This document shows positions 21,563 to 48,916 of a stretch of DNA of 64,000 bases, in pieces. The stretch is from Erythrobacter mangrovi (GTDB lineage: Bacteria; Pseudomonadota; Alphaproteobacteria; Sphingomonadales; Sphingomonadaceae), in the NCBI RefSeq assembly GCF_013260645.1, contig NZ_CP053921.1, forward strand, positions 2,839,289-2,903,288. The letters are read 5' to 3'. Under the pieces are notes generated by a model, which was not told the DNA's origin, ran no database searches, and worked only from the letters and a program-made list of their open reading frames with translations. Position 1 is the stretch's first letter; every line of letters begins with the position of its first letter. The position numbers were made by a program, and so were the translations under genes.

Positions 21563-21576
21563 GGTATCCTGCTGAC

Positions 21577-22689: not shown

Positions 22690-22799
22690 CGGGTAATGTG
22701 TCGCCTTCGGCCCGAGGCTGGCCAATAACGCGCTGTAAAGAAGGTCAATTTCTCCGCCGAGCAAAGGCGACACCGAGTCGCCTTTGTCGCCTTAGTCGA
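22690..22799 (-). repeat. 110-bp GGCGAC element, copy 1
   Basis: On the minus strand it starts with a 39-base block that differs by one base from the copy at 48807-48845. That block contains a nine-base stem, AAAGGCGAC-TCGGT-GTCGCCTTT. After about 45 variable bases it ends with a second GGCGACAC motif between CGGG and CCCG. The acyl-CoA dehydrogenase stop codon (22792-22794) lies inside the block, so the element is the 3' end of that transcript. Both copies are exactly 110 bases long. Confidence 0.8.
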
Positions 22800-23538
22800 C
22801 GCGGGTTGGATCGGTCCGGGCAGTCAGGTCAGGCCAGAAGGCCTCGGAACCGCGCGCTACCACCAACTCGCCGAGTACGCGGCTCCAATGCGCATCGTTG
22901 CCGAACTCGCTGCGCCATTGCCAAAGCCGCTTGGTCAGTTCGTGAAGCCCATATTCTTCGGTGAAGCCGATAGCACCATGGACCTGATGCGCGACGGTCG
23001 AGCCCACGCCTACTGCGCGGTTGGCGCGCAGTTTGGCGGCGGCCACTTCGAAGGTCGCATCGCCGCGGTCGAGTGCCTGAGCCGCGCCCATCGCCGCGCA
23101 ATTGGCGGCTGCGGCCTCGCAGGCGAAGGTGGCGAGGCTTTGCTGGACCGCCTGGAACTTGCCCAGCGGGCGGCCGAACTGCTGGCGCTCGTTGACATAG
23201 CCGACTGCTATCGCCAGCGCCGCGTCGAGCGCTCCGGCGATCTGCGCGCCGCGGGCGAAGGCGCACAGCAGGAAATGCTCCTGGCTGCCCTCCTGTGCGC
23301 GCCCGGCAATGATCGCTTCAGGCAGAGGCAGGGCGAGCGCGTGGTATCCGGCGAGGCGGAACACCACCAGCGCGTCCTCCCATGTGCCACCGAAGCCGCC
23401 TTCGGTCTCGGGAGCCAGTAGCAGCGGCAGGCCGAGCTCTTCGATCCGCGCCCAGTCGCGTTCCATGGTGGCGCTCGAGCTGAGTTCGGCGAACAGCGGA
23501 TCGGCCATTTCGGCCAGCATGCGGCGGGTGTCACTCAT
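22792..23538 (-). CDS. Acyl-CoA dehydrogenase-like protein lacking the middle domain
   Basis: The 248-residue product has a helical N-terminal part (IEELGLPLLLAPETEGGFGG) and an acyl-CoA dehydrogenase C-terminal helical domain (VGYVNERQQFGRPLGKFQAVQ, AHQVHGAIGFTEEYGLHELTKR). The beta-sheet middle domain that normally separates them, about 100 residues, is missing: the sequence passes from LPEAIIAGRAQEG almost straight to the C-terminal helices. Family members are usually 330-400 residues. It overlaps the upstream full-length dehydrogenase gene by four bases and may be the partner in a heteromer, as in steroid-type FadE pairs. The last codons and stop come from a repeat element. Confidence 0.75.
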   Translation of the reverse strand: MSDTRRMLAEMADPLFAELSSSATMERDWARIEELGLPLLLAPETEGGFGGTWEDALVVFRLAGYHALALPLPEAIIAGRAQEGSQEHFLLCAFARGAQIAGALDAALAIAVGYVNERQQFGRPLGKFQAVQQSLATFACEAAAANCAAMGAAQALDRGDATFEVAAAKLRANRAVGVGSTVAHQVHGAIGFTEEYGLHELTKRLWQWRSEFGNDAHWSRVLGELVVARGSEAFWPDLTARTDPTRVD

Positions 23539-24671
23539 CTCAGGCCAAGTCCCCGTGCGATGATGCCTTTGAGGATTTCGCGCGTCCCTCCACGCAGCGA
23601 GAAGCTGGGCGAGACCTGTAGCAGATAGGCGGTGACGCGGGCGAGCGCGTCCTCGCCGTTCAGGTCCATCTCCACCACCGCCTGCACCAGCTCGGGGATC
23701 GCCTGTTCGTAGGAATTGCCCAGGTCTTTGACGATAGTCGCTTCGAGTGCGGGGTCCTCGCCACGCGCCAGCTTGGCAGCGACCGAAGCACTCATCAGCC
23801 GCAACGTCCATGCCTCAGCCGCGAGCCGCCCGACAAGTTCGCGTACCGTCTGATCGGGGTGCTTGCCCGCATGGCGGACCAGTTCGGTGAACAGCGCCAT
23901 CGATGACAGGTAACGCTCGGGCCCCGAGCGCTCGAGCGACAGCTCGGCGGTCGCCTGCTTCCACCCATTGCCCTCTTCCCCGAGCAGCGCGGTTGCGGGC
24001 AGGCGCACGTCTTCGAAGAACACCTCGTTGAATTCATGCGCACCGGTCAGGTCGATGATCGGCTTCACCGTCACGCCCGGAGCGTCCATCGGGATGACGA
24101 ATTGCGACAGGCCCTGCTGACGCTCGCTGCCCGGTTCGGAGCGGATCAGCGCGATCATGAAATGCGCGACATGCGCGCCGGTGGTCCAAACCTTCTGGCC
24201 GTTGATGACCCAGTCATCGCCGTCACGCCGTGCCGAGGTCCGCACAGAGGCAAGATCGGAACCCGAATTGGGTTCGCTGAGACCGATGCAGGCGAAAGCC
24301 TCGCCCCGCGCAATCGCGGGCACCCAGCGACGCTTCAGCTCCTCATTGCCCATGCGCAGCAACAAGGGCCCGCTCTGGCGGTCGGCAATCCAGTGCGCGC
24401 CGACCGGCGCACCCGCCGCCAGCAGTTCCTCGATCACCACGTAGCGCTCGATCTGGCTGCGTTCGTGCCCGCCGTATTCCCTGGGCCAGGTCATGCCCAG
24501 CAGCCCGGCCTCTCCCAGCCTGCGGCTGAAGGCCGGATCGGCCTTGGTCCAGCAATTGGCGCGACGGACCGGGTCGCGCTCGCCATGCTCGGCGACCAAG
24601 GCACGCACCTGCTCGCGCAAGGCGGTGGCGCTTTCGGGCCAGTCGACGGCCTCTGTAGCGAAGGTCTGCAA
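23535..24671 (-). CDS. Acyl-CoA dehydrogenase
   Basis: A 378-residue flavoenzyme that introduces the alpha-beta double bond into acyl-CoA esters. It has the FAD/substrate segment CIGLSEPNSGSDLASVRT, the middle-domain WVINGQKVWTTGAHVAHFMI and the C-terminal SLRGGTREILKGIIARGLGL. The start is a TTG at 24671 with a GAGGAGA site six bases upstream; no ATG lies close enough. It is coupled by a four-base overlap to the truncated dehydrogenase gene. It is divergent from the aldehyde dehydrogenase gene. Substrate specificity cannot be read from sequence. Confidence 0.88.
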   Translation of the reverse strand: MQTFATEAVDWPESATALREQVRALVAEHGERDPVRRANCWTKADPAFSRRLGEAGLLGMTWPREYGGHERSQIERYVVIEELLAAGAPVGAHWIADRQSGPLLLRMGNEELKRRWVPAIARGEAFACIGLSEPNSGSDLASVRTSARRDGDDWVINGQKVWTTGAHVAHFMIALIRSEPGSERQQGLSQFVIPMDAPGVTVKPIIDLTGAHEFNEVFFEDVRLPATALLGEEGNGWKQATAELSLERSGPERYLSSMALFTELVRHAGKHPDQTVRELVGRLAAEAWTLRLMSASVAAKLARGEDPALEATIVKDLGNSYEQAIPELVQAVVEMDLNGEDALARVTAYLLQVSPSFSLRGGTREILKGIIARGLGLR

Positions 24672-24784
24672 GGCTTCTCCTCTCGCGCCCTCTCTCACCA
24701 ATCTATCGCCGCAGCGCAAGACCCGTTGCATCGAGAAACGAATCCCGACAGTGTATGCCCTATAGCGAGTCCTGGAGGAGAGAG

Positions 24785-26209
24785 ATGATGACCGACTACA
24801 AGAACCTGATCGATGGCGAGATGGTCGACAATGGCCGCTGGATGGAGGTCGTCAATCCCGCCACTGAGGAAGTGTTTGCCCGCGTTCCAGCCTGCGGCAA
24901 GGACGAGCTCGATCGCGCCGTCACCGCTGCGCGCCGCGCCTTCAAGACCTGGCGCAAGACCAGTTCCGAGGAACGCCAGAAGGTGGTCCAGGGGATCGCC
25001 GCCGCGATCAAGGACAATGCGGACGAGCTGTTCCGCCTGCTCACCGCCGAACAGGGCAAGCCGCACCACCAGGCGCAGATGGAAATCTACGGTGCCGCGG
25101 GGCTGGCTGCCGCGCAGTCGACCCTGACGCTGGACGACGTGATCAACCAGGATGACGAGGAGCGCCTCAGCCGCACCCGCCGCGTGCCGGTGGGCGTGGT
25201 CGGCGGGATCGTGCCGTGGAACTTCCCCGTGATGATGGCGATCCAGAAGATCGTCCCCGCGCTGATTTCGGGCTGCACCATCGTGCTCAAGCCATCGCCC
25301 TTCACCCCGCTGACCACGCTGCGCGTGGCCGAGCTGATCAAGGACGTGGTCCCGGCCGGCACGGTCAACATCATTACCGGCGAGGACAGCCTCGGCCCGC
25401 TGATCACCGAGCATCCGGATATCGACAAGGTGACCTTCACCGGTTCGACCGCGACCGGCAAGAAGATCATGGAAGGCGCTTCGAAGGACCTCAAGCGCAT
25501 CACGCTCGAACTCGGCGGCAATGACGCCTCGATCGTGCTGCCCGATGCCGATGTCGAAAAGGTTGCCGAACAGCTGTTCTGGTCGAGCTTCACCAATGCC
25601 GGGCAGATCTGCGTGGCGGCGAAGCGCATCTACATCCACGAGGACATCTACGACGACCTGAGCAAGGCAATCGCCGAATACGCCAAGGGCGTGACCGTGG
25701 GTGACGGATCGCAGCAGGGCACGGGCGTCGGGCCGATCCAGAACAAGAAGCAGTTCGATCGCGTGTGCGAACTGATCCAGGACGCCAAGGACAAGGGCTA
25801 CAAGTTCCTGACCGGCGGCAATGTCGATCCTACGGGCACCGGCTATTACGTGCCGATCACCATCCTCGACAATCCGCCCGAAGACGCGCGGATCGTGGCT
25901 GAGGAACAGTTCGGCCCGGTCATGCCGCTGATGAAGTTCTCGACCGTCGACGAGGTGATCGCGCGGGCCAATAACTCCGACTACGGGCTGGCCGGTGCGG
26001 TCTGGACCAAGGACGTCGACAAGGGCGTCGAGATTGCCGAGCAGCTCGAAACCGGCACGGTGTGGGTCAACGAGTTCCTCCACATCTCGCCGCTGGCCCC
26101 CTTCGGCGGGCACAAGCAGTCGGGCTTCGGTGCGGAATACGGGCTCGATGGCCTCAAGGAATTCACCTACCCGCAGGTGATCACGGTCAAGCGCAACGCG
26201 GCGGTCTGA
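24785..26209 (+). CDS. NAD(P)-dependent aldehyde dehydrogenase
   Basis: A 474-residue aldehyde dehydrogenase that oxidises an aldehyde to its acid. It carries VPWNFPVMM and the cofactor-binding FTGSTATGKKIM, the general base glutamate in LELGGNDASIV and the catalytic cysteine in NAGQICVAAKRIY. The start follows a GGAGGAGAG site; two ATGs lie side by side (24785, 24788). The neighbouring acyl-CoA dehydrogenases suggest a degradation pathway for an aliphatic or aromatic acid, but the aldehyde is unknown. Its end is four bases from that of the convergent MocA-like gene. Confidence 0.9.
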   Translation: MMTDYKNLIDGEMVDNGRWMEVVNPATEEVFARVPACGKDELDRAVTAARRAFKTWRKTSSEERQKVVQGIAAAIKDNADELFRLLTAEQGKPHHQAQMEIYGAAGLAAAQSTLTLDDVINQDDEERLSRTRRVPVGVVGGIVPWNFPVMMAIQKIVPALISGCTIVLKPSPFTPLTTLRVAELIKDVVPAGTVNIITGEDSLGPLITEHPDIDKVTFTGSTATGKKIMEGASKDLKRITLELGGNDASIVLPDADVEKVAEQLFWSSFTNAGQICVAAKRIYIHEDIYDDLSKAIAEYAKGVTVGDGSQQGTGVGPIQNKKQFDRVCELIQDAKDKGYKFLTGGNVDPTGTGYYVPITILDNPPEDARIVAEEQFGPVMPLMKFSTVDEVIARANNSDYGLAGAVWTKDVDKGVEIAEQLETGTVWVNEFLHISPLAPFGGHKQSGFGAEYGLDGLKEFTYPQVITVKRNAAV

Positions 26210-26212
26210 CGC

Positions 26213-26794
26213 CTAACCGAGTGCGCGCAGGGTAGCTTCGTCGTCCACATCGGCGAGGGTGCCCTGCGGCGCCGCGACCAGTTCAGCCGCGCCCAGCAAG
26301 GCGCGAGCACCCTTGTCGCCGCTGGCAAGCACCAGCCGATCGAAATGCGCGCTGCCGAAGACGGCGGGTGGCATCGCAGCCGTGCCATCGGTTGAGGCGA
26401 CCAGCGCCGCTTCTCCCTGTATGCGGGCCTTAGCCAGCAAGGCGACGAAATGGGCATGGGGCACCAGCGGCATGTCGGCGAGTGCGATCAATAGCTGGTC
26501 GATCTTAGCTTCCTTGGCTAACCGCCCCGCGAGGGCGACCGAAGTGCCCATGCCCTGCGCGGCATCGGGGTTCGGGACCGGATTGAAACCCGCCTCCACC
26601 CAGCCGGGAACGCAGGGATGCTCCGGATCGGACACGCTCACCCAGCGGTGGGCGAAAGCGAGCTGCGCCAGGGCGTCGGCGGCATGCAGGCCCAGCATCT
26701 TGCCCCGGAAACCCGCCGCCAGCTTGTCGCCGCCGAACCGGCGCGATTGCCCGGCGGCGAGTAGCGCCACCGCAAGGCGCGGCACCTCACCCAA
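26213..26794 (-). CDS. MocA/MobA-like molybdenum cofactor nucleotidyltransferase
   Basis: A 193-residue NTP-transferase-fold protein, probably molybdenum cofactor cytidylyltransferase, which converts Mo-MPT to MCD for xanthine-oxidase-type enzymes. It has ALLAAGQSRRFGGDKL at residues 9-24 (nucleotide-binding loop) and LLIALADMPLVP (metal-binding Asp). The start appears to be a TTG at 26794 with GAGG six bases upstream, overlapping the XdhC stop by eight bases; a GTG at 26785 is the alternative. As the last gene of the molybdenum hydroxylase operon it should supply that enzyme's cofactor. Confidence 0.85.
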   Translation of the reverse strand: MGEVPRLAVALLAAGQSRRFGGDKLAAGFRGKMLGLHAADALAQLAFAHRWVSVSDPEHPCVPGWVEAGFNPVPNPDAAQGMGTSVALAGRLAKEAKIDQLLIALADMPLVPHAHFVALLAKARIQGEAALVASTDGTAAMPPAVFGSAHFDRLVLASGDKGARALLGAAELVAAPQGTLADVDDEATLRALG

Positions 26795-27731
26795 GCCCGG
26801 CCTCGAAGGGGGTGTCCTGGTAGGCCTTCACGATCTCCGCCAGTGCCGAAAGCGCCAGCGTGTCGGGATCACGCGAGGAATGGAACAGGCCGATCGGCGC
26901 GTGGATGCTGGCGACCTGCTGCTCCGACACACCCGCCTGCGCCAGCGCCTCGCGGCGTAGCGCATGCGCGCGGCGCCCACCCATTGCCCCGAAGTAGAAA
27001 TGCGGCAGCGCCAGCGCGCGCTGCATCAGCGCCAGCTCCCAGTCGTGATCGTGAAACAGGAAGACGAAGGCGGTCCAGTGGTCGCCATGCAGCCCGTCGG
27101 TCTCGGTGGTGCGGGTAAGCCGGCTGGCCGCGAGCCCCTCGCCCGCAAGTGCCGCTACCAGATCGCCATCGGGCGACAGGACTTCGACCTCGAGATCCAT
27201 GGTCCGGGAGAGGCGGGCGAGCGCGGCCACGCCCGCGCCATGGCCGACCAGCACCAGCCGCGGCTGCGGCCAGTGGCCGAAGCGCCCGCAGCCGCCGGCG
27301 AAATCGAAGGAGGGGCTGGCCCAAACCTTCTCGAAGGCCGCGCCATCGGGTTTGATCGCGACCGAGAACGGCCTGCGCGCGGCAACCGCGGCAAGGCTCG
27401 CCTCGACCAGCGCGGCGTCGCCAAGCGGCTGGAAATGGATGTCGAGCCCGCCGCCGCAGGGCAGGCGAATGTCGAGATAGGGCGAACCCGCGCCGAAGCG
27501 CACGATCCGCGGCGCGCCTTCGTCAAGCGCAGCCAGCGCCTCGGCCACCACCGCATTCTCGATGCAGCCGCCCGAGAGCGAGCCGTTGAAGCTGCCGTCC
27601 TCGCACACGCCCATATGCGTGCCGGGATTGCGCATCGAACTGCCCTCGACCGCGAGCACGGTGACCAGCACGCAGCGCTGGCCCTGGCCGAGTTTCCCCG
27701 CGAGGAAGCGAAATACGCGCGGGGAATCCAT
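26787..27731 (-). CDS. XdhC/CoxI family molybdenum hydroxylase maturation protein
   Basis: A 314-residue protein of the XdhC family, which binds molybdenum cofactor, promotes its sulfuration and hands it to the hydroxylase. The N-terminal domain has VLVTVLAVEGSSMRNPGTHM and LSGGCIENAV (cysteine at 56); the C-terminal Rossmann-like domain has PRLVLVGHGAGVAALARL and HFYFGAMGGRRAH. The ATG is seven bases from the cytochrome c stop. Together with the MocA-like gene it completes a maturation set for the IorAB-type enzyme upstream. Confidence 0.9.
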   Translation of the reverse strand: MDSPRVFRFLAGKLGQGQRCVLVTVLAVEGSSMRNPGTHMGVCEDGSFNGSLSGGCIENAVVAEALAALDEGAPRIVRFGAGSPYLDIRLPCGGGLDIHFQPLGDAALVEASLAAVAARRPFSVAIKPDGAAFEKVWASPSFDFAGGCGRFGHWPQPRLVLVGHGAGVAALARLSRTMDLEVEVLSPDGDLVAALAGEGLAASRLTRTTETDGLHGDHWTAFVFLFHDHDWELALMQRALALPHFYFGAMGGRRAHALRREALAQAGVSEQQVASIHAPIGLFHSSRDPDTLALSALAEIVKAYQDTPFEAGLG

Positions 27732-27738
27732 CGCGATC

Positions 27739-28197
27739 CTATCCGGTGATGCCGGCGAGGTAGGCGATGATCGCGGCGCGCCTGGCCTCGTCGCTCACCG
27801 CGCCCGCGGCCATCGAGGTGCCGGGTACCTTGGCGGCGGGATTGGCGAGGAAGGCGTCGAGTTCCTCCTCGCTCCAGGTGATGCCCGATCCCTTCATCGC
27901 GTCCGAATAGGCGAAACCGGCCAGCGTGCCGGCTTTGCGCCCGACCACTCCGGCGAGATTGGGCCCGACGCCCGAAGCGCCTCCGAGTTCGACCGAATGG
28001 CAGGCCGCGCAGGCGGCAAAGGCGGCCTTGCCCGCCGCGCTCGGGTCGGCTGCCGCGCTGTCGGGTGTGGCAGCCACGGGGGTCCCGGGCTCGCGTACCA
28101 CGATCTGTTCGACCGGCGGTTCAGGGTCGGATCCGCAAGCGGCCAGCGCCAGCGCAAGGGCGAGGGTCAGGGGACGGGCGAGAGTGGCCTTGTACAT
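27739..28197 (-). CDS. Lipoprotein-type class I cytochrome c
   Basis: A 152-residue exported haem protein. The signal sequence ends in a lipobox LAAC (Cys21), so it is probably membrane-anchored. One haem site CAACH (63-67) is followed by GPNLAGVVGRKAG, and a likely axial methionine lies in PGTSMAAG. The start has an AAGGAGA site. Placed directly after the Mo-hydroxylase large subunit gene, it is the likely electron acceptor carrying electrons from the hydroxylase to the respiratory chain. Confidence 0.92.
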   Translation of the reverse strand: MYKATLARPLTLALALALAACGSDPEPPVEQIVVREPGTPVAATPDSAAADPSAAGKAAFAACAACHSVELGGASGVGPNLAGVVGRKAGTLAGFAYSDAMKGSGITWSEEELDAFLANPAAKVPGTSMAAGAVSDEARRAAIIAYLAGITG

Positions 28198-28219
28198 GCT
28201 CTGGGTCTCCTTTCCGCGC

Positions 28220-30469
28220 TCAGGCGAACTGCTTGGCGAAGGGCATTTCGCGCAGGCGCTTGCCCGACGCCGCGAAGATCGCGTTGGCCAGCGCCGGGGC
28301 GACCGGGGGCAAGCCGGGCTCGCCCGCGCCGCCCAGCGTCACGTGGTCGCCATTGATGATCTCCACCGCGATGGCGGGGCATTCGTTCATGCGCAGCATC
28401 TTGTAATCGTGGAAATTGCTCTGCTCGACCGCGCCGTCCTTGAGCGAGATCTCGCCATGGAGCGCGGCGGTCAGGCCATAGACGATGCCGCCCTCCATCT
28501 GGTTGCGGAAACCGTCGGGGTTCACCGCGAAGCCCGGATCGGCCGCGCACCACACCGTGACCAGCTTTGGCGATCCCGAGGTCATGTCGACCTCGACCAC
28601 CTCGGCCACGATGGTGCCGAAGGATTCGACCAGCGCCACGCCCTTGCCATGGCCTTCGGGCGTGTTGCCCCAGTCGGCCATCGCGGCGACCTTCTCCAGC
28701 ACCGCCTTGTGGCGCGGCGACTGGCCCAGCATTCCCAGCCGGAATTCGACCGGGTCCTTGTTCGCCGCATGTGCGGCCTCGTCGATGAAGCTTTCGATGA
28801 AGAAACCCTGCTGGCCGTGGTCGACCGAACGCAGCGACGCGAAGGGCAGGAGCAATTCGGCTTCGGCCACGCGGATCGACTTGTTGGGAATGTCGTAGAA
28901 TGCGCAATCGAACGACCCCGGCGGGTCGTGCCGCTGGGTGAACACGTTGTTGTAGGCCACCAGCTTGCCGTTCTGGTCCAGCCCGCCCTTGAAGCGGCTG
29001 ATATCGGCGCAGCGGAACAGGCCCTTTTGGGTGTCTTCCTCGCGCGACCAGATCATCTTGACCGGATAGCCGGTCGCCGCGCCGATCCGCGCGGCCATGG
29101 TCACGTAATCGGTTTCAAGCCGCCGCCCGAAGCCGCCGCCCAGCAGCGGATGGTGGAGGGTCACGTCATCGGCGCTTAGCCCGGTGGCCTTGGCTGCCGC
29201 GGTGCGCGCCATCAGCGGCACCTGCGTGCTGGTCCAGACATCGCACTTGCCGTCGCGCACCCACACGGTGGCGTTCATCGGTTCGAGCGGCGCATGGGCG
29301 AGATAGGGCACGCGATATTCGGCCTCTACCTTGGTCGCGGCGCTGCCGAAGGCATCCACCGCATCGCCATTCCCGGCTGCTTCGTCCCCGCCGCCGTCAC
29401 CGGCTTCGTCGAGCGCTGCGGTGAAGCGGGCATACTGGTCATCGCTGGTGCGGATCGCGCTCTCGGGCTCGCTGTATTCGGCGGTGATGAGGTTTAGCGC
29501 TTGCTGCGCCTGCCAGTATCCATCGGCCACCACCGCGATGAAATCGCCCATGTTGAGGATCTGCAGCACGCCGGGCATGCCCTTTGCCTGTTCGGCCTGC
29601 ATCGATGTCACGCGCGTGCCGGGCACGGGTACGCGGCGCAAGGCGGCGTAGCTGAGCTGCTGGTCGGGCACGACCGCGTCGATCCCGAAGCTGGCCGACC
29701 CGTCGACCTTGGCCGGGATGTCGAGCCGCGGCGCATCGGTGCCCATCAGGCGATAGGCCTTGGGCTGCTTGAGCGGTGGGGTCTGCGGCATGTCCTGTTC
29801 GGCCGCAGCCGCGGCGAATTCGGCATAGGGGGCTGACTTGCCCGAGGCGGCATGGCTCAGCATGCTGTTGGCGGTGACGATCTCGCTGGCCGGGACGCCC
29901 CAGCTCTTTGCCGCGGCGGCGACCAGCATGTGCCGCGCGGCCGCGCCCGCGATGCGCATGGTGTGCTGGCCGGTCGACCGGACCGAGGAACTGCCGCCGG
30001 TGATCATGGCGTCGGCCAGTCGCCCGATATTGGTGAACAGCCCGTTCCAGGTCGGCTCGAGCCAGTCGGGTGCGTTAACCGTGCCCGGCGCGACGAACAG
30101 CCGCGCGGTGTCGGTGACGATGTAATTGCCGTCTGCCGGCGCCTGCATCACCCGCACCAGCGACCAGTCGGCGTCGAGCTCGTCCGCCAGCATCTGGGCC
30201 AGCGCCGAATGCGCGCCCTGGCCCATCTCGCAATGCGGGACGATCGCGGTAGCGACATTGTTGGCGTCGATCTTGAGCCAGCTGTTGATCAGCTGTTCGC
30301 CCTCGCCATTCGCGACGATCGGGCCGAGCTTGCCGACCGGGTTGCCCGGGCGCACGCCCACACCGATCAGCAATGCGCCGCCGGTCAGGACACCCGCGCC
30401 GATGAAGCCGCGGCGGGTCCACTTGGCCGCGCGGCTGCGCTGCGGCTTGGGATTGTCGGCATTGTCCAT
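28220..30469 (-). CDS. Molybdopterin hydroxylase large subunit (isoquinoline 1-oxidoreductase beta type)
   Basis: A 749-residue molybdenum-binding subunit of the xanthine oxidase family. The N-terminus has a Tat-type signal (RRGFIGAG followed by a hydrophobic stretch), so the folded enzyme is exported with its cofactor. Motifs include [16 protein letters not shown] and [20 protein letters not shown] near the C-terminus, with the catalytic glutamate in GEPG. The ATG overlaps the stop of the 2Fe-2S subunit gene by one base. Substrates in this group are N-heterocycles or aldehydes. A low-complexity Gly/Asp/Glu insert ([16 protein letters not shown]) lies near residue 360. Confidence 0.9.
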
Positions 30470-40681: not shown

Positions 40682-40757
40682 GATCGAGTCGATCCCCCTG
40701 GGTCAAATTCCGACCGGGCCATAGCAGGCCATCCGGCATCAAGGCCAAAGTGGGGGC

Positions 40758-40786: not shown

Positions 40787-40802
40787 GCAAGTCAGTTCTG
40801 GG

Positions 40803-43550
40803 TCAGAACTTGTAGGTGAAGCCCGCCAGGAAACGGCGACCGTAGATCTGGTAATCGATCACCTGGTTCCGTGCCGCACCGACCGAGGCGAAACGTTCAT
40901 CGGTCAGGTTCTGGCCCTGGACGTAGAGCGACAGGCCTTCGAGAGCGCTGCCGGGCTGGAAGTCATACCCGATCTGCGCGTCGATGATCGTCTCTGCCAG
41001 TGCCGTCCGCCGGGTCGGCGATCCGCCGAAGCCGGTGAAGTCGCCCAGGAAGGTCGAACGGTGACGGGCGCTGACACGCGTGTTGAAGCCCGCCTTCTCG
41101 AAATAGGCCGTGCCGTTGACCACCCACTTGGAGTAGCCCGGGATGGTGGTTTCCGCGCCATCGGCGTCCTTGACCTTGGTCTCGGTGTAGCCAACGCCGC
41201 CGGTGATCCCGAAGCCTTCAAGCGCGCTGCTGAAGTTCGAGAACGGGAGGGTCACCGCCAGTTCGCCGCCGTAGAGGTCACCGCCCCCGGTGTTGACCGG
41301 GGCGTCGAGCGTGCCTTGGCTCGGCAGGTTAGGATAGGCATCCGCGCCGGTCGGTGCGGGGAAGGCTCCGTAGTCGAAGTTGAAGCGACCGTTGAAGATG
41401 TAGCTCTTGATGTCCTTGTAGAACAGCTGGACAGCAACCACGCCACCGGTACCGAAGTACTTCTCGACGTTGAAATCGACGGCGTTGGCACGATAGGGCC
41501 GCAGGTAGGGGTTACCGCCGCCGCCACGGATGATGCCGCCCGGTACCGACGCATCGATCCCGTACCCGATCGACAAGCGCGTGTCGTCAAGGCGCGAACG
41601 CATGATTTCGCGTGCCGCGGCAAAGCGGATCACCCAGTCGCTGTCGAGTCTCAGCGAGAGGTTCATGCTGGGCAATACGTCCCAGTAGTTGTCGCCGAGA
41701 GTCAGTTCTTGCGGCCCGGCTGGGCCGAAAATGAACCCAGTCGATTTCTGGTTGGTATTGATCGCCTGGACGCCAAAATTGCCGGTCAGGACACCTCCAC
41801 CCACATCTTGCTCGATGTTGGCTTGCAGGTACGCTGTCATCAGATCTTCGTTGACCGTGTAGCCCTTGCCCAGGACGTCGTTGGCGGCGTTGGGTCCGCT
41901 GGTGACGCGAGGCTCGAGCTCCAGGATGCCGGCAGCAATCAGCTCACGTGCGTCATAGCTGACGATCGGACCCAGGCCGAGGTAGCTGAGATCGGTCGAG
42001 CGCAGCAGAAACTCTGACGGAATGCTGGCGGTGAAGGCACCGTTGGGCAGACGCACAAAAGCTTCATCTGGGACCAGACCCTTTTCGCGCGTGGTGTAGT
42101 TCAGGCCGAACTGCACGCTGCGAAGGAAGCTGCCTTCGAACTCTTTTTCGATCTCGGTCCGGAACTGGAACAGCTCGTCATCGATGATGCGATTGTTGTA
42201 ATAGCCAGCTTGCGGAATGGTGCCGCCACCCCAGCCGAGCGGGTCGGTCAAGAAGATAATCGACGGATCGCTGTAGTCGAGCGAAGGATCGAACACGGTG
42301 CCCGTGCTGCCTGATACGAAACCGATCGAGGCGGCCGCGCCGTCGCCGGTAGTCGGACCGTTGAAACCGGTACCCGAATAGCTTTCGAGGCTCAGCTCGT
42401 TGCGGTCGGTCCGCGAGTAGCCGAAGTCGAACATGGCGTGCCAGCCGTCGTCGCCGTCATAATCGGCATTGAAGCCGAACGAGTAGAGATCGGCCTTGCG
42501 CTGGAAGATGTCGTTGCGAATGACGCCGCGAACATTGTCGAAGGTGCCCGACGTTACGAGGCCGTCTTCCACCGTAGCCGTTGCTGCGTCGCCGGTCGTA
42601 CCGAATGCGAAGAACCCGAGCGGCAGCTCGATACCGCGCTTCGTCTGATCGTCGTTGAAGTGCGAATAGAACCCATCGAATGTCAGCATGAATTCGGGCG
42701 TGGCTGCGATCTGCAGCGTGCCGTTCAAGCCGAAGCGCTTGAGGTCGGTGGAGGTCACGAAAGACTTCGACCCGCCGATCAGCGCTGCATCCTGCCCATT
42801 GACCTGCACATTGTTGTAACCCCAGGCGTTGAATTCCTGGAGCTGGTAGGGCTCATCCACATAGGATGCGGCAAGCGAGATGCCGATCGTGTCGTCAGCG
42901 AACTGGTCGACGTAGGTGCCGTTGACGCGATAGCCGAGTTCGTTCGATCCGGCGTTCAGTTTGCCGATGTCGGCATAGGAACCGCGCGCACCGACGGAAA
43001 TGATGCGCTTGTTTGTTTCCAGCGGGCGGATCGTGCGAATGTCGATCGTGCCCACCAGGCCCTGGCCGACCAGCGAGGCAGTCGGCGACTTGTAGACGAC
43101 CACCTGGTTGACGATTTCCGAGGGGTACTGGTCGAGTTCGACCGAACGGTTGTCGCTGGTGGTAGTCTGTTCACGACCGTTCAGGAGCGTCTGCGAGAAG
43201 TCGGGGCCAAAGCCGCGGATCGCGATGACGTTCGCGCGACCGTTGAGGCGCTGCGACGTTAGGCCCGGGAGGCGGGCAATCGATTCACCGATCGAGGCAT
43301 CTGGCAGCTTGCCGATGTCTTCCGCGGTAACCGATTCCACAATCTGGTCGGCACGCTTCTTGGTGTTGGTTGCGCTTTCGAGTGAAGCGCGGAAGCCCGA
43401 AACGATGATGACGCCTTCGTCTTCATCGACTGTTGCTTCGACGTCGTCGGCTGCGGCGTCCTGTGCGACCGCCGGTGTTGCAAGCGCAGCAAGTGCGATG
43501 CTTACGGCGCCCACGCTGATGCCGCCGGCAAGATGCTTGCGAAATGCCAT
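40803..43550 (-). CDS. TonB-dependent receptor (maltodextrin type)
   Basis: A 915-residue outer-membrane receptor: signal peptide to about residue 29 (ending AVAQ), an acidic linker with a TonB-box-like EGVIIVSGF, a plug domain (about 60-190, with GESIARLPGLTSQRLNGR and IRGFGPDFSQTLLNGR) and a 22-strand barrel ending in YKF. The start has a GGGAGAG site. Neighbours mark it as a maltodextrin transporter like Caulobacter MalA. No SusD-like lipoprotein is present, as expected for Proteobacteria. Divergent from lacI across 283 bases holding the operator. Confidence 0.92.
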   Translation of the reverse strand: MAFRKHLAGGISVGAVSIALAALATPAVAQDAAADDVEATVDEDEGVIIVSGFRASLESATNTKKRADQIVESVTAEDIGKLPDASIGESIARLPGLTSQRLNGRANVIAIRGFGPDFSQTLLNGREQTTTSDNRSVELDQYPSEIVNQVVVYKSPTASLVGQGLVGTIDIRTIRPLETNKRIISVGARGSYADIGKLNAGSNELGYRVNGTYVDQFADDTIGISLAASYVDEPYQLQEFNAWGYNNVQVNGQDAALIGGSKSFVTSTDLKRFGLNGTLQIAATPEFMLTFDGFYSHFNDDQTKRGIELPLGFFAFGTTGDAATATVEDGLVTSGTFDNVRGVIRNDIFQRKADLYSFGFNADYDGDDGWHAMFDFGYSRTDRNELSLESYSGTGFNGPTTGDGAAASIGFVSGSTGTVFDPSLDYSDPSIIFLTDPLGWGGGTIPQAGYYNNRIIDDELFQFRTEIEKEFEGSFLRSVQFGLNYTTREKGLVPDEAFVRLPNGAFTASIPSEFLLRSTDLSYLGLGPIVSYDARELIAAGILELEPRVTSGPNAANDVLGKGYTVNEDLMTAYLQANIEQDVGGGVLTGNFGVQAINTNQKSTGFIFGPAGPQELTLGDNYWDVLPSMNLSLRLDSDWVIRFAAAREIMRSRLDDTRLSIGYGIDASVPGGIIRGGGGNPYLRPYRANAVDFNVEKYFGTGGVVAVQLFYKDIKSYIFNGRFNFDYGAFPAPTGADAYPNLPSQGTLDAPVNTGGGDLYGGELAVTLPFSNFSSALEGFGITGGVGYTETKVKDADGAETTIPGYSKWVVNGTAYFEKAGFNTRVSARHRSTFLGDFTGFGGSPTRRTALAETIIDAQIGYDFQPGSALEGLSLYVQGQNLTDERFASVGAARNQVIDYQIYGRRFLAGFTYKF

Positions 43551-43675
43551 ATTGTGCTCTCCCTAATGGCCCGATCCAGATAGCAGTCCCCGGGCCGAAT
43601 CCAATTCGTCGACAGGAAGCTCGCGGCTCCTGTTCATCGTCCGGATAGGTGGTGTGCGCGTCGCGCCGATAGATG

Positions 43676-43689
43676 GCATACGTATACGC
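43676..43689. promoter_or_regulatory. LacI-family operator, site 1
   Basis: GCATACGTATACGC contains the perfect dyad CGTATACG at 43681-43688 and an overlapping ATACGTAT. It lies in the region between the divergent TonB receptor and LacI genes, 126 bases before the receptor start. The same CGTATACG octamer occurs at 44885-44892. It fits the central-CG palindromes bound by LacI-family sugar repressors. Confidence 0.7.
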
Positions 43690-43833
43690 ACCCTCTGCAA
43701 GGGCGGCTTGAGTCTCCGAAATGTCACAGGCTACAACCGGCAGGAGCGTTGCTCTTTCGCGCGATTGCCAGCGGTCCGCGGCCATCCTAGAGTTGGCTCC
43801 CAAGGTCCAAGGGGAGGGGCCAGGAGGAGAGCA

Positions 43834-44871
43834 ATGGGTCGCAAGCCGACGGGTCGGCCGACCAGCTTCGATATCGCCTACGCGGCAGGTGTCTCGCAGC
43901 CTACAGTGAGCCGCGCGTTGCGTGGCGATCGAGCCGTGAGCCAGGCAACGCAAGAGCGGATCAGGCAGATCGCGCGCGATCTCAATTACACCGTCGACAA
44001 GAACGCGTCGTCGCTGCGTTCGCAGCGCTCGAACACTATCGCCTTGCTGTTCTTCGAAGATCCGACGCCCGACCAGAGCATGATCAATCCGTTCTTCCTC
44101 GCCATGCTCGGGTCGATCACTCGCGCCTGCGCCGATCGCGGGTTGGACCTGCTCATCTCGTTCCAGCGGATGGAAGATGACTGGCACGTCCAGTACCAGG
44201 ACAGCCATCGTGCCGATGGCCTGATCCTGCTCGGCTATGGCGACTATACGCTCTACCGTGAGCGGCTCGACCAGCTGGAGCGGCAGGGCACTCATTTTGC
44301 ACGCTGGGGCTCGGTCTCGAGCGACAGTGGCGGCCTGACCGTAGGGACCGACAATCTCGAGGCAGGACGGCTTGCAGGGCAGCATCTGATCGATAGCGGA
44401 CGCCGGCGGATCGCATTCCTCGGCGGAGCGGATGAGCATTGTCCCGAGTTCGAAAGTCGCTACGCGGGGCTGTGCAGATCGCTTCGCGCGGCGGGGATCG
44501 ATCCGGATCCGGCGCTGCAATATGATGCCATCACCACCGAAGAGGCAGGCCATTCGGCCGCACAGGCGCTGCTCTCCTCGGGCAAGAAGTTCGACGCGAT
44601 TTTCGCGGCGAGCGACCTCATCGCGATCGGCGCGATGCGGGCATTGGCCGAAGCAGGCCTGAAGGTCCCCAGCGATGTCGCGGTGGTCGGGTTCGACGAT
44701 ATTCCGGCCGCCAGTCTTACGACACCTCCCCTGACCACGGTGATGCAAGACATCCGGGGCGCGGGTGAAGCATTGGTCGACACCTTGCTGGCGCAGATCG
44801 AGGGGCGCGATTTGCCGGGGCACCGGCTTCCCGGCAAGCTGGTGGTACGGGGGTCCAGCGCAGTCGCCTGA
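43834..44871 (+). CDS. LacI-family transcriptional regulator
   Basis: A 345-residue repressor. The N-terminal helix-turn-helix and hinge lie at residues 9-60 (SFDIAYAAGVSQPTVSRALRG), and a periplasmic-binding-protein-like sensor domain follows (GLTVGTDNLEAGRLAGQHL, FAASDLIAIGAMRAL, DVAVVGFDDIP). The ATG at 43834 is set by a strong AGGAGGAG site. Placed between the TonB receptor and the MFS permease, it should control both sides in response to maltose or a derivative. Two CGTATACG sites flank the gene. Confidence 0.93.
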   Translation: MGRKPTGRPTSFDIAYAAGVSQPTVSRALRGDRAVSQATQERIRQIARDLNYTVDKNASSLRSQRSNTIALLFFEDPTPDQSMINPFFLAMLGSITRACADRGLDLLISFQRMEDDWHVQYQDSHRADGLILLGYGDYTLYRERLDQLERQGTHFARWGSVSSDSGGLTVGTDNLEAGRLAGQHLIDSGRRRIAFLGGADEHCPEFESRYAGLCRSLRAAGIDPDPALQYDAITTEEAGHSAAQALLSSGKKFDAIFAASDLIAIGAMRALAEAGLKVPSDVAVVGFDDIPAASLTTPPLTTVMQDIRGAGEALVDTLLAQIEGRDLPGHRLPGKLVVRGSSAVA

Positions 44872-44878
44872 ACCACAA

Positions 44879-44892
44879 CGTATTCGTATACG
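44879..44892. promoter_or_regulatory. LacI-family operator, site 2
   Basis: CGTATTCGTATACG includes the dyad CGTATACG at 44885-44892, identical to site 1. It begins eight bases after the lacI stop and 99 bases before the permease start, where an operator for the permease-kinase-amylase operon is expected. Confidence 0.7.
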
Positions 44893-44977
44893 GCCTTGTT
44901 GCAGGTCCCGCATCATGCGAGCCAAGCCGGATTGCACCATGGCGGGCACCAAGACCTGCGCGGGATGAGGGACTGGA

Positions 44978-46492
44978 ATGGAACAAACGCTTCGCGAGAA
45001 GCCGCGCCAGGGCTTTGCCGGCCTGTGGAACATCAGCTTCGGCTTTTTCGGTATCCAGATCGGTTTCGCGCTGCAGAACGCGAATATGAGCCGCGTCTTC
45101 CAGACGCTGGGCTCCTCGATCGATGACTTGCCGGCATTGTGGGTGGCGGCGCCGCTAACGGGCCTGCTGGTCCAGCCCATCATCGGCCATCTGTCCGACC
45201 GCACGTGGAACCGGCTGGGACGCAGGCGGCCGTACTTCCTGACAGGTGCCGTACTCGCCTCGCTCGCGCTGCTTGCCATGCCGTTGAGCCCGGCGATGGG
45301 CGCACCACTGCTGTTCGCGGCGGCGATGCTGTGGATGCTCGATGCCAGCCTCAATATCTCGATGGAGCCGTTTCGTGCCTTCGTTGGCGACATGCTCAAT
45401 ACCGACCAGCACGCCGCAGGCTATGCCGTGCAGACCGCCTTCATTGGCGCCGGTGCGGTGGTCGGGTCGATCTTTCCATGGTTCCTCGAACACCTCGGCG
45501 TGAGCAACATCGCTGCAGAGGGCAGCCTGCCCGACACGGTCAAATGGAGCTTCTGGGCGGGCGCTGCTGCACTGTTCGGTGCGGTACTATGGACCATCCT
45601 GACCACCCGCGAATACTCTCCCGAAGAACAGGCTGCCTTTGCTGGTGGGGAAGCGGCCGTCGACGACAGCGTTTCCCTGCGCGCGCTGGCGGCAAAAAGC
45701 TACGGTTCGGCAGCCCTATGGGTCGCTGCCGGCGTCCTCGTCGCCCTGGCTGTGGATGCCCTTGCGCTAGAAAGAGAGGTATTCCTGCTGGGTGCCTTGC
45801 TGGCGCTTTATGGGCTGCTCAGCGCCATCGCGATTGCGATGGCCAAACAGGGGCGCGCGGCCAACATGCTTTCCAGCATCGTCGGTGACTTTTCCGGCAT
45901 GCCCGAAGTGATGAAACGCCTGGCGCTGGTACAGTTCTTCAGCTGGTCGGCGCTGTTCATCATGTGGATCAACACCACGCCAGTGGTGACGCAATATGTC
46001 TATGGAAGCTCGGACACGGCCAGCACCGCCTACAATGAGGGCGCGAACTGGGTGAACGTCCTCTTCACCGTTTACAATGGCGTCGCGGCCGTAGCCGCTC
46101 TGGCCCTGCTGCCATGGCTCAGCCGCAAGGTTGGGCAGGTGACGACCCACTCGATCTGTCTGACGCTGGGTGCCGCAGGTTTCCTGACGTTCTTTCTCGT
46201 TCGTGACGCGCAGGTCCTGCTGCTGGCCGAAGTCGGTATCGGTATCGCCTGGGCGAGCATCCTCGCCATGCCATATGCTATTCTCGCAAGTAACCTGCCG
46301 CAGGCCAAGCTCGGCATCTACATGGGGCTGTTCAATATCTTCATCGTTGTCCCGCAGTTGCTGGTGGCGACGGTGATGGGCTCCATCATGCAGGCCTTCT
46401 TCCCCGGCGAGCCGGTGTGGACCATGCTCTTTGCCGCGGCCAGCTGGATCGTGGCCGCGCTGGCCATGCAACGGGTCAAGGCGGCGCTGTGA
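44978..46492 (+). CDS. MFS sugar (maltose-type) permease
   Basis: A 504-residue inner-membrane transporter with about 12 membrane helices, opening with LWNISFGFFGIQIGFALQNANMSRVFQTLG and the loop GHLSDRTWNRLGRRRPYFLTG characteristic of the GPH/SLC45-like sugar:cation symporters. It is similar in kind to Caulobacter MalY. It should import maltose or short maltodextrins from the periplasm. The start follows GGGACTGG. The stop overlaps the ROK kinase start by one base (TGATG), so it is coupled to it. Confidence 0.9.
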   Translation: MEQTLREKPRQGFAGLWNISFGFFGIQIGFALQNANMSRVFQTLGSSIDDLPALWVAAPLTGLLVQPIIGHLSDRTWNRLGRRRPYFLTGAVLASLALLAMPLSPAMGAPLLFAAAMLWMLDASLNISMEPFRAFVGDMLNTDQHAAGYAVQTAFIGAGAVVGSIFPWFLEHLGVSNIAAEGSLPDTVKWSFWAGAAALFGAVLWTILTTREYSPEEQAAFAGGEAAVDDSVSLRALAAKSYGSAALWVAAGVLVALAVDALALEREVFLLGALLALYGLLSAIAIAMAKQGRAANMLSSIVGDFSGMPEVMKRLALVQFFSWSALFIMWINTTPVVTQYVYGSSDTASTAYNEGANWVNVLFTVYNGVAAVAALALLPWLSRKVGQVTTHSICLTLGAAGFLTFFLVRDAQVLLLAEVGIGIAWASILAMPYAILASNLPQAKLGIYMGLFNIFIVVPQLLVATVMGSIMQAFFPGEPVWTMLFAAASWIVAALAMQRVKAAL

Positions 46493-47388
46493 TGCCGGGC
46501 CTGGTCGGTGCGGTCGAGGCCGGGGGGACCAAGTTCGTCCTCGCGCTCGCTCGCCCCGACGGCACGGTGATCGAGCGTACGCGCATCGATACACAGGATG
46601 GCCAGAACACCCTGCGGGAACTGACCGCATGGTTCGCGGCGGCCCAAGCTCGGCACGGTTCGATTGACGCCTTCGGCATCGCCAGCTTCGGACCGATCGG
46701 GATCGATCCGGGGCAGGCCGATTACGGTACCTTCCTCACAACGGTGAAGCCCGGATGGCAGGGTGCCAGTTTCACCCAGGCGCTGGCCGGTTTCGACGTG
46801 CCGGTGAAGATCGATACCGATGTGAACGGGGCTGCGCTCGGGGAAGCCTTGGCTGGCGCGGGCAGGGGCCGAAGGGTCGTGGCCTACACCACGGTCGGTA
46901 CTGGTATCGGGAGCGGCATCGTAAAGGACGGCGCGGTAGTCACGGGGCTATCGCATTTCGAAACGGGGCACCTTCGCCCGCCGCATGACCTCTCCCGCGA
47001 TCCCTTTGAAGGATCCTGCCCATACCACGGGGACTGTTGCGAGGGTCTCGCCAGCGGCACCGCGATCCGCGCGCGATGGGACGCCGAATTGGGCGAGGTG
47101 ACGGACCCTCAGGCAGTCGCACTAATCGGTCATTACCTGGGCCACCTCGCCGCGACGCTGGCGGCATTCCACATGCCCGAAGTTTTTATCTTCGGTGGCG
47201 GGGTCATGAAGACGCCCGGCCTGCTGGAGGCGCTGCGCACGACCATGCGTCAAAGCCTCGCTGGCTACCTCGCCTATTACGATCGCGATCTCGACGAGAT
47301 CGTTGTTGCGCCCGAACTGGGCGACGATGCCGGCATAACCGGAGCGATCTCGCTCGGTCGGCAAGCCATGGAGAAGACCCCGTCATGA
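46492..47388 (+). CDS. ROK-family sugar kinase (fructokinase type)
   Basis: A 298-residue ROK kinase that phosphorylates a hexose with ATP. VGAVEAGGTKFVLAL binds phosphate, DTDVNGAALGEALAG includes the catalytic-region residues, and TVGTGIGSGIV is the ROK glycine loop. The zinc motif is HLRPPHDL followed by CPYHGDCCEG, as in fructokinases. Within this maltose locus it may act as the glucokinase for glucose released by glucosidases. The ATG overlaps the permease stop, and its stop overlaps the next ATG by four bases. Confidence 0.9.
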   Translation: MPGLVGAVEAGGTKFVLALARPDGTVIERTRIDTQDGQNTLRELTAWFAAAQARHGSIDAFGIASFGPIGIDPGQADYGTFLTTVKPGWQGASFTQALAGFDVPVKIDTDVNGAALGEALAGAGRGRRVVAYTTVGTGIGSGIVKDGAVVTGLSHFETGHLRPPHDLSRDPFEGSCPYHGDCCEGLASGTAIRARWDAELGEVTDPQAVALIGHYLGHLAATLAAFHMPEVFIFGGGVMKTPGLLEALRTTMRQSLAGYLAYYDRDLDEIVVAPELGDDAGITGAISLGRQAMEKTPS

Positions 47389-48800
47389 AACGCCTGCTCG
47401 CTGCCGCGGCAATCCCGCTCCTCGCCGGCGGGGTCTATGCAATCGCCTCAAGGGCCGATCAGCCGGAGGCTTCCGCTTGGGTTCCGCACAGCAAGGTCAC
47501 GCTCACCCATCCCGAATGGTCGCGCAAGGCCGTGCTCTACCAGATCAACACCCGCCAGTTCACGCCTGAAGGGACATTCAAGGCCGCGCAGGCGCAATTG
47601 CCGCGGCTCAAGGAGCTGGGCGTCGATATCCTGTGGTTGATGCCGATCCATCCGATCGGCAAGGACAACCGAAAGGGTACTCTGGGCAGTCCCTACTCGG
47701 TCCAGGACTATTACGCGGTGAACCCCGAGTTCGGCACCAAGGAAGACCTCAAGGCCTTCGTCGATGCGGCCCACGCGCAAGGCTTCAAGGTGATCCTGGA
47801 CCTCGTCGCCAACCACACCGCGTGGGACAACCGGATGGCGAAGGATCATCCCGACTGGTACGAGAAGGACTGGAAGGGCGATTTTCGGCCGACCCCGTGG
47901 TGGGACTGGTCGGACATCATCGATCTCGACTGGTCGCAGCCCGGTGTGCGCGAGCATGTCGGCGGGGCCATGGAAATGTGGGTTCGCGACTACGGTATCG
48001 ACGGCTATCGCGCCGACGTCGCCGGGTACGTCCCGCTCGATTTCTGGGAAGCGATGCGGGCGCGGCTCGATGCCATCCGCCCGGTCTTCATGCTCGGCGA
48101 GGTCCAGCAGACCGCCTTCCACTTAGCCGCCTTCGATGCGACCTATGGCTGGGACTGGCACGTCACCAGCAAGAAGGTCGCACATGGCGAAGGCGATGCG
48201 ACCAGCTTCTACGGCTACTATGCCGAGAATGAGAGCCTGTGGCCGCGCGAGGCGATGCGGCTGACCTATATCGAGAACCACGACAGCAACGCCTGGGAAG
48301 GCACGATGCGGGAGAATTACGGTCCGGCGCTTGAGGCGATGACCGTACTGTCCTTCACTGGCCAGGGCCTGCCATTGGTCCATAACGGCATGGAAGCCTG
48401 CAATGCCAAGCGGCTGGAGTTCTTCGAGAAGGACCCGATCGATTGGGATCAGGGGCAGCAATGCGACTATGGCGCGCTGCTCAAGGACCTGATCGCCTTC
48501 CGCAAGGCCAATCCGGTGCTCGATAACGGGCAATGGGGTGGGGTGATGCAGAAGGTCGATACGGACAAGCCGCAGCAGGTCTTCGCCTGGGCGCGGCAAG
48601 ATGACGGCAACAAGGTGCTCGCCTTCTTCAATTTATCCGGCGCCCCGGTGACCTTCTCGATCACCAGCAAGCTGGCCAACGGGACCTACCGCGAGTTCCG
48701 CGGCGCGGAGGGGGTCAAGATGGCCGCGGGCGACAGCATGACCCTGGCACCCTGGGGCTACCGCCTGCTCGCGACGGATCCTGCCGCAGGCCAGCGGTAA
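47385..48800 (+). CDS. Exported GH13 alpha-amylase family protein
   Basis: A 471-residue GH13 enzyme with a likely signal sequence (MKRLLAAAAIPLLAGGVYA). Catalytic segments are DGYRADVAGY, FMLGEVQQTA and TYIENHDSN; VLYQINTRQFTPEG opens the barrel. Compared with the other two GH13 proteins it has Ala in RADVAG and a shorter B domain. It is the last gene of the plus-strand permease-kinase operon, and a 110-bp repeat starts six bases after its stop. It should act in the periplasm, its exact specificity being unknown. Confidence 0.92.
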   Translation: MKRLLAAAAIPLLAGGVYAIASRADQPEASAWVPHSKVTLTHPEWSRKAVLYQINTRQFTPEGTFKAAQAQLPRLKELGVDILWLMPIHPIGKDNRKGTLGSPYSVQDYYAVNPEFGTKEDLKAFVDAAHAQGFKVILDLVANHTAWDNRMAKDHPDWYEKDWKGDFRPTPWWDWSDIIDLDWSQPGVREHVGGAMEMWVRDYGIDGYRADVAGYVPLDFWEAMRARLDAIRPVFMLGEVQQTAFHLAAFDATYGWDWHVTSKKVAHGEGDATSFYGYYAENESLWPREAMRLTYIENHDSNAWEGTMRENYGPALEAMTVLSFTGQGLPLVHNGMEACNAKRLEFFEKDPIDWDQGQQCDYGALLKDLIAFRKANPVLDNGQWGGVMQKVDTDKPQQVFAWARQDDGNKVLAFFNLSGAPVTFSITSKLANGTYREFRGAEGVKMAAGDSMTLAPWGYRLLATDPAAGQR

Positions 48801-48806
48801 TTGGGG

Positions 48807-48916
48807 TCGACGAAGGCGACAAAGGCGACTCGGTGTCGCCTTTGCGCTATTAATATAAGACTTTGGGAATAAATAGAAAATTTTCCCTGTTTCGGGTAAA
48901 GGCGACACTTGGCCCG
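48807..48916 (+). repeat. 110-bp GGCGAC element, copy 2
   Basis: Begins six bases after the GH13 stop codon in sense orientation. The first 39 bases match copy 1 with one mismatch and hold the stem AAAGGCGAC-TCGGT-GTCGCCTTT (48821-48843). The middle is AT-rich here and unlike copy 1. The end has GGCGACAC between CGGG and CCCG. The remaining 81 bases to the thiolase gene show no gene. Confidence 0.8.

Follow-up and report, generated by a model that had tools for sequence, protein, structure and literature searches.

A dispersed family of ~185-base intergenic units in Erythrobacter mangrovi and other sphingomonads, tentatively read as small transcription units

The 64,000-nucleotide stretch of Erythrobacter mangrovi contig NZ_CP053921.1 analysed here (positions 2,839,289 to 2,903,288; the window) contains two copies of an intergenic repeat, first described in an initial annotation as a 110-bp element lying in sense orientation just after stop codons. 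Both copies are present as described, sharing a 39-base proximal block with one mismatch (97%, query 1-39), a 9-bp stem AAAGGCGAC/GTCGCCTTT with the loop TCGGT on the annotated strand and a distal GGCGACAC at 22698-22705 and 48901-48908. In copy 1, a TAA stop (22794-22792, minus strand) lies inside the 39-base block, while in copy 2 a TAA at 48798-48800 lies six bases ahead of 48807. The fixed length of 110 bp is not supported: inner spacing varies within the family, and each copy continues to a TTTCCTAC box, giving a unit of ~180-185 bp. This box, found three times in the window where 0.26 occurrences are expected, lies in copy 1 one base past the stop of an ORF at 21541-22605 (LuxR-like by eye), and in copy 2 next to a minus-strand frame at 48998-51148 (thiolase-like by eye), three bases away from where that frame ends (48998). 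Genes were named by reading their translations, with one exception that was searched. On the strand opposite to the annotated one, which is the proposed RNA strand, the parts are as follows.

22607..22791, plus strand: copy 1, whole unit, from TTTCCTAC to the last GTCGCC (paralogue alignment and coordinates)
22607..22614, plus strand: copy 1 TTTCCTAC box, proposed -35 (TTTCCT)
22630..22635, plus strand: copy 1 CTAGGG, putative -10 at 17-bp spacing
near 22644, plus strand: copy 1 putative start, GCTCTTT
22698..22705, plus strand: copy 1 site D' GTGTCGCC, the distal motif of the initial annotation
22763..22791, plus strand: copy 1 hairpin AAAGGCGAC-ACCGA-GTCGCCTTT and tandem GTCGCC
48815..48994, minus strand: copy 2, whole unit
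48987..48994, minus strand: copy 2 TTTCCTAC box, proposed -35
48966..48971, minus strand: copy 2 ATATGG, putative -10
near 48957, minus strand: copy 2 putative start
48901..48908, minus strand: copy 2 site D' GTGTCGCC
48815..48843, minus strand: copy 2 hairpin and tandem GTCGCC

The 23-base hairpin of copy 1 has an MFE of -12.9 kcal/mol. The genome has four further copies, six in all at six separate places, and the 23-base palindrome with up to two mismatches occurs at five places against none in the reversed control. The family extends to other sphingomonads, among them Croceicoccus gelatinilyticus and Qipengyuania proteolytica, with the same constant ends and variable middle, and 49 of the 51 stretches with a named source that carry copies belong to Sphingomonadales. 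Beyond the distal motif, a T(T/G)TCCTAC box is found in 46 of 57 copies (chance, 93/3780 windows). Four other genomes have 58 copies between them, of which 53 carry the box (control, 9/660). The consensus of the 18 copies in genome G175 reads TTTCCTACA, then CCTGCCAt.aT, then CGGCTCTT. AAAGAGC (annotated strand) is present in 15 of 57 copies, 13 of which have it at a distance of 36-37 nt from the box. We regard the family, its approximate boundaries, its conserved blocks, its strand bias and its homogeneity within genomes as established. Of the initial interpretation, the dispersed family is supported; the sense 3'-UTR rule, the fixed length, the strand and the REP-like character are not. No Rfam match was obtained on the element, in the window and at six relatives' or own loci, with E values up to 5. 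Titles and abstract openings of the literature on sphingomonad small RNAs and repeats showed nothing comparable, and among titles on TTTCCTAC in sphingomonads no paper was found. On this footing, the family of ~185-base intergenic units in sphingomonad relatives is undescribed.

A non-autonomous dispersed DNA element (MITE- or REP-like), running from TTTCCTAC to TGTCACCC and tolerated near gene ends, would make the box an end rather than a promoter. We consider this unlikely, although several features of the family fit it. Copy number per genome is very uneven, from none found in most to at least 19 in some; at least 41 of 199 family genomes carry copies, these figures being lower bounds owing to strict filters and to the scoring of at most 19 candidates per genome, and the 158 without a match under those filters would be odd for an important regulator. 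In one genome, four paralogues align over the unit while their flanks are mostly unrelated, and convergent gaps are common (25 of 51). Copies are also homogeneous within genomes: hairpin details are mostly alike within a genome but change from species to species at a given locus (the mmsB-side own copy, unmatched by the search expression, was judged from separate comparisons), so that the prfA-side copy of G007 resembles other G007 copies and not the prfA-side copies L032 and L083. Against such an element, neither boundary is entirely sharp, with ~19 nt ahead of the box common to L169 and L178 and ~36 nt beyond the unit end common to L173 and L178; no terminal inverted repeats were seen, TTTCCTAC and TGTCACCC not being inverted copies; and no viral contig searched matched the pattern, nor did copy 2 find a plasmid match by blastn. 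Furthermore, 17 pairs of presumed orthologues have identities of 95% in the box, 90% in the 3' block (inflated, as the pairs were found through this block) and 68% in the middle, against 59% for aligned random 50-mers, and such conserved ends with worn middles at one locus are unexpected of dead insertions.

The REP comparison also falls short, the stem having no adjoining GTAG or CGTC tag: its flanks on the proposed RNA strand are GAGC/GCGC and GTCG, and the GTAG of GTAGGAAA is ~150 nt away. Of the GTAG- and CGTC-tagged REP families, the CGTC ones occur mainly in alphaproteobacteria, and reported carriers include S. chlorophenolicum, S. wittichii and N. aromaticivorans (PMC3733652). As in the tagged REPs outlined there, the element has a short palindrome with a 9-bp stem, a 5-nt loop and A-T pairs at the base, and the stems of both window copies lie within the range for CGTC families (8-9 bp, loop of 4-5 nt). 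Unlike them, its palindrome makes up only part of a 180-185 bp unit and, whereas head-to-head dimers predominate among tagged REPs, the own copies are six singles at six places. Another comparison is with the Rhizobium-specific intergenic mosaic elements (RIME), which appear by title in the references of PMC2873474. RIME are intergenic, palindromic and of about the length initially annotated. Compared by description, they are shorter than the unit, which also has a promoter-like end. Integron attC sites, considered on account of the 3' placement, were dropped because a start codon adjoins half of the copies in this genome.

The promoter-like box, a weak T-run and the mismatches of the hairpin point away from the sense strand of the initial annotation. 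On the annotated strand, the non-Watson-Crick cells of 10 pairs in 55 sequences comprise 66 A.C, 2 G.U and 47 neither; the 66 A.C are G.U on the other strand, making the latter the likely RNA strand. There, nine pairs in 92 sequences gave 127 G.U, 17 A.C and 94 neither, counts that, like the former, ignore the relatedness of copies; this set includes one mis-registered own copy with a 6-nt loop and leaves out 10 of 102 aligned matches in which the two GTC anchors are missing (six real copies whose 3' block is altered or shortened, five from G259 and one from G246, and four opposite-strand or partial matches). RNAalifold on the RNA strand gave UA 20, CG 19 and UG 15 for the central pair, with 2 broken. 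At the one variable position, two other pairings lean to the annotated strand, by 10 to 5 and by 12 to 3. A long-range switch pairing the distal motif with the hairpin arm was considered and is not claimed; at the one variable Y/R position, the distal-arm pair is standard in 53/57 copies on the annotated strand and 44/57 on the RNA strand, and the local hairpin pair in 41/57 and 55/57, respectively.

These mismatches also bear on the initial view that the element acts, in sense orientation, as 3'-UTR hairpin or terminator for the gene with the adjoining stop codon, which we now find highly improbable. In its favour, 43 of the 58 copies in the four other genomes have their hairpin end facing the end of a convergent gene (p = 0.0003), often within 20 nt; this count and that of the mixed set below rest on gene calls from our own simple codon-score finder. 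Placement just after a stop describes part of the copies; in three of the six own copies the hairpin end is next to a start codon, and in a mixed set the sense 3'-UTR rule is obeyed by only 31 of 56 (p = 0.50). In addition to the A.C mismatches on that strand, a lenient terminator test (stem of at least 6, then at least 4 T within 6 bases) was positive there in 0 of 58 copies. The RNA strand gave 19 positives among the 58, in every case at the final hairpin, and control stretches gave 14 of 1040. The remaining 39 copies failed on the RNA strand, the T-run of the family is weak (TTTGTC), and neither window copy is followed by a terminator-like hairpin.

At the other end of the unit, the box and a CATNAT-like stretch 17 bp on resemble a promoter. 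TTTCCT is a poor -35 against the usual consensus, and across the genome TTTCCTAC shows no excess (63 sites versus 57 in the reversed control). Two small genes for HTH-like proteins (called with the same finder) also have the box, 28-29 nt ahead of their ATG, a distance that fits a promoter of leaderless genes. Alternatively, the element may be a DNA-level binding platform, on which one protein, possibly with looping, would occupy tandem TGTCRCC sites spaced ~75 bp from each other, the hairpin arising only because some sites are inverted. Where the hairpin arm has decayed (the left arm is degraded in G175), direct repeats TGTCACCTTTGTCACC are retained; a variant common to the copies of a genome is what transcription-factor sites would display; and the 5' box is shared with a sibling family that carries TGTTCCAYGTGTTCC. 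We regard this model as distinctly doubtful. Hairpin changes are biased to one side, towards G.U, which is unexpected for DNA binding, and the distance between first repeat and distal motif ranges from 79 to 100 bp. To our knowledge, the spacing of ECF-type, LexA and PhoB sites does not fit the repeats.

The explanation we favour, with somewhat less than even confidence, is that each copy is a ~180-185 bp transcription unit on the strand opposite to the annotated one, belonging to a multi-copy family of regulatory RNAs or leaders. From these sequence patterns we infer its transcription, start site, partner and function. RNA polymerase would recognize the -35 TTTCCT and the CATNAT-like -10 across the 17-bp spacer and start ~36 bases inside the TTTCCTAC box, at GCTCTTT. 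The predicted RNA would contain a first UGUCRCC site, followed by a variable middle rich in A/U. A hairpin would then form between its left arm, GGYGACA, and the next UGUCRCC; a second UGUCRCC lies 9 nt further on, and the left arm could pair with it about as well. Its end would adjoin the next gene. Between convergent neighbours it could stop as a small RNA, the hairpin and UUUGUC being a possible weak terminator; otherwise it would run on as the leader of an mmsB-, queE-, ppdK- or prfA-like gene. The active part may be the repeated UGUCRCCUUUGUCRCC, read by a common partner; this may be a protein, or it may be mRNAs, whose Shine-Dalgarno region could pair with UCACCUUU. Such a partner, we propose, is why the copies of one genome change together.

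Comparable small RNAs are the rhizobial SmelA075 and SmelA099, which are reported to have anti-Shine-Dalgarno motifs and, for SmelA075, presumed paralogues on several replicons (PMC3927594). The likeness lies in a repeated short motif; CCUCCUCCC of SmelA075/SmelA099 sits in hairpin loops, whereas UGUCRCC of the predicted RNA would lie partly in the stem. Other alphaproteobacterial small RNA families are suhB (RF00519) and ar35 (RF02346), which, unlike the element, are in Rfam; L066 has matches to both away from the element, that to ar35 below the gathering score.

If transcribed, the units would form a multi-copy sphingomonad RNA family without an Rfam match and define a TTTCCTAC promoter class in sphingomonads. 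They would come with a built-in comparison between orthologues at fixed loci and paralogues changing in concert, and their partner molecule could be found by covariation. A mobile element with a promoter-like end and without inverted repeats would also be unusual. More speculatively, and in our opinion improbably, Erythrobacteraceae may harbour a superfamily of dispersed transcription units with one 5' end, TTTCCTAC, and different tandem 9-nt repeat ends, each subfamily having its own trans-acting partner with which its copies co-evolve, which would amount to an undescribed kind of genome-wide RNA or leader regulon. Two such tandem 9-nt repeats occur in this genome, TGTCRCCTTTGTCRCC in six copies and TGTTCCAYGTGTTCC, that of the sibling family (gene calls from our finder), at 28 places.

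Both 110-base copies described in the initial annotation are present in the window as it stated, and BLAST with copy 2 finds six places in the genome (GCF_013260645.1): copy 2 itself, copy 1 (97% identity across 39 bases) and four more (92-95% across 30-38 bases). When at most two mismatches are allowed, the 23-base palindrome AAAGGCGACNNNNNGTCGCCTTT occurs in five places (reversed control 0), the copy that escapes being one with a six-base loop. To the right of the distal motif, 62-148 nt away, 46 of 57 copies have a box, GTAGGAAA (TTTCCTAC on the other strand), which is present in 93 of 3780 control windows. The box is likewise found in 53 of 58 copies from four relatives' genomes (control 9/660), and three times in the window against 0.26 expected, a number reached in 0 of 100 shuffles. 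In one of these genomes, G175, four paralogues can be aligned from the box to TTTGTCACCC; outside, four of six pairs are without convincing similarity within 100 nt, while similarity extends past the unit over ~19 nt ahead of the box between loci L169 and L178, and over ~36 nt beyond its other end between L173 and L178. Because the box is conserved and these paralogues align from box to TTTGTCACCC with mostly unrelated flanks, the unit is about 180-185 bp long.

Features in the window
22607-22791, +: copy 1 of the unit
22607-22614, +: box of copy 1
about 22674-22680: homopolymer C/G tract (similar tracts at loci L064, L070, L075 and L092)
48994-48815, -: copy 2 of the unit
48994-48987, -: box of copy 2
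471-605, +: sibling element, T(T/G)TCCTAC, then TGTTCCATGTGTTCC about 115-119 nt on
471-478: third occurrence of the box, at the start of this sibling element
about 60863-60733, -: sibling element, T(T/G)TCCTAC, then TGTTCCATGTGTTCC about 115-119 nt on

The simplest account of the family would be a multi-copy transcribed unit, either a small RNA or a leader, in which a common partner might recognise the tandem UGUCRCC; its transcription is proposed from sequence. The strand would be opposite to that of the initial annotation (here the RNA and annotated strands, respectively). On the annotated strand, the non-Watson-Crick cells of the hairpin (ten pairs, 55 sequences) comprise 66 A.C, 2 G.U and 47 others, the A.C cells being G.U on the RNA strand, although a single pair, constant in its A, accounts for 32 of the 66, which makes the cells look more independent than they are; for the central pair on its own the figures are 15 versus 1. 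Nine pairs in 92 copies read on the RNA strand give 590 Watson-Crick, 127 G.U, 17 A.C and 94 other cells. RNAalifold predicts the local hairpin on the RNA strand and favours another pairing, with more broken cells, on the annotated one. When candidate terminators were sought leniently, as a stem of 6 or more with 4 or more T among the following 6 bases, 19 of 58 copies had one within the element on the RNA strand, always at the final hairpin with a TTTGTC or similar tail, and 0 of 58 on the annotated strand (14 of 1040 control stretches); the 126 nt beyond the element contain one in 1/58 on the RNA strand and 5/58 on the other, and the corresponding stretch in a mixed set contains one in 2/57. 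However, the first repeat-arm and distal motif-arm pairings lean toward the annotated strand at the variable position (10 versus 5 and 12 versus 3), which counts against a simple single-strand reading. A DNA-binding platform is a live rival of the transcribed unit.

With positions counted from the start of the box on the RNA strand (53 copies), 90% have C at position 23 and 67% have A at position 24; these fall in a CATNAT-like stretch, and CTCTT lies near position 37, a promoter-like arrangement whose spacing matches a -35, a 17-bp spacer, a -10 and a start. The CATNAT-like stretch is weaker in the sibling family and at 12 other intergenic sites. By our own gene finder, 23 of 30 sampled TTTCCTAC sites (63 in the genome) are intergenic, but the octamer shows no over-representation across the genome (63 versus 57 in the control), which argues against the promoter reading of the box. 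Two sampled sites, L104 and L114, lie 28-29 nt before the ATG of small HTH-like proteins; Pfam gives HTH_29, below cut-off, for that of L114 and no match for that of L104. At L101, L104, L114 and L123, the last close to the gene beside element copy L003, TTTCCTAC immediately precedes genes for small HTH-like proteins, which may be leaderless and use this same class of promoter. At L124 (1382301 in this genome), the octamer lies 48 nt upstream of a DUF6456 gene (PF20057, E 9.5e-42), a domain of gene-transfer-agent regulators.

With a strict pattern, 8 of 60 genus genomes, this one among them, yield 18 copies in all (control 0). A pattern scan of genomes sampled at one per species yields 51 stretches, of which 49 are in named Sphingomonadales (Qipengyuania, Croceicoccus, Erythrobacter, Novosphingobium, Aurantiacibacter, Parasphingorhabdus or family-level MAGs) and two are labelled only 'Pseudomonadota bacterium'; copies listed under Qipengyuania proteolytica are also found in genome G007. 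A covariance model trained on 56 copies matches at least 41 of 199 family genomes (E <= 0.01), with 6 matches here and up to at least 19 in others. A dispersed DNA element is also a live rival. No match to the family's search pattern was found in viral contigs, none to copy 2 by blastn in plasmids and none to the element in Rfam.

The proposed placement after stop codons holds as a preference in some genomes and not as a rule, because the left gene is directed toward the element in 43 of 58 copies of G175, G246, G259 and G202 (p = 0.0003; 37/51 with both flanks known, p = 0.002) versus 31 of the 56 with a gene call in a mixed set of 57 distinct copies, three from this genome. Copies 1 and 2 and L003 each follow a stop codon, in the annotated orientation, within a gap between convergent genes, whereas L004, L005 and L006 lie between same-direction genes, antisense to both, their hairpin end adjoining the start codon of mmsB-, queE- and ppdK-like genes (names judged by reading translations).

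Among 17 presumed orthologue pairs, identity is 95% in the box, which was outside the original search pattern yet required for entry in this comparison, and 90% in the 3' block, a value inflated since the pairs were found through it. It is 79% in the 40 nt beyond the unit, 78% in the first site, 76% in the -10/start region, 68% in both the -35/-10 spacer and the middle, and 67% before the first site (random 50-mers align at 59%). The hairpin differs between species at the prfA-like and queE-like loci and is common to most paralogues inside this genome, where two copies have a variant loop, and inside G007; most copies end 3' in TGTCACTT(G/C)TGTCACC in G246 and in GGTGACAGGGTGTCACC or one-base variants in G259. 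Copies would be either homogenised or tracking a common partner. Several copies carry homopolymer runs of C or G, about 7-12 bases long and possibly slippage sites, in the interval from the proposed start to the first TGTCRCC site. Croceicoccus copies L065, L076 and L079 have a separate GC hairpin within the variable middle, AAACCCCGCGC...GCGCGGGGTTT in the first two.

The sibling family is marked by GGACCNTGTTCCANGTGTTCC, found with up to two mismatches in 28 places in this genome (control 0), the next gene being co-directional and downstream in 23. Because the T(T/G)TCCTAC box precedes it in 21 of the 28, lying 111-122 nt away in 15 cases, a common 5' module joined to interchangeable tandem repeats at the 3' end is supported for both families. 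Also in this genome, arrays of GGGTGACA/GGGTGACGC-like repeats precede TGTTCCA repeats at L115, L116, L230 and L240, that of L115 lying upstream of a RuvA-like gene.
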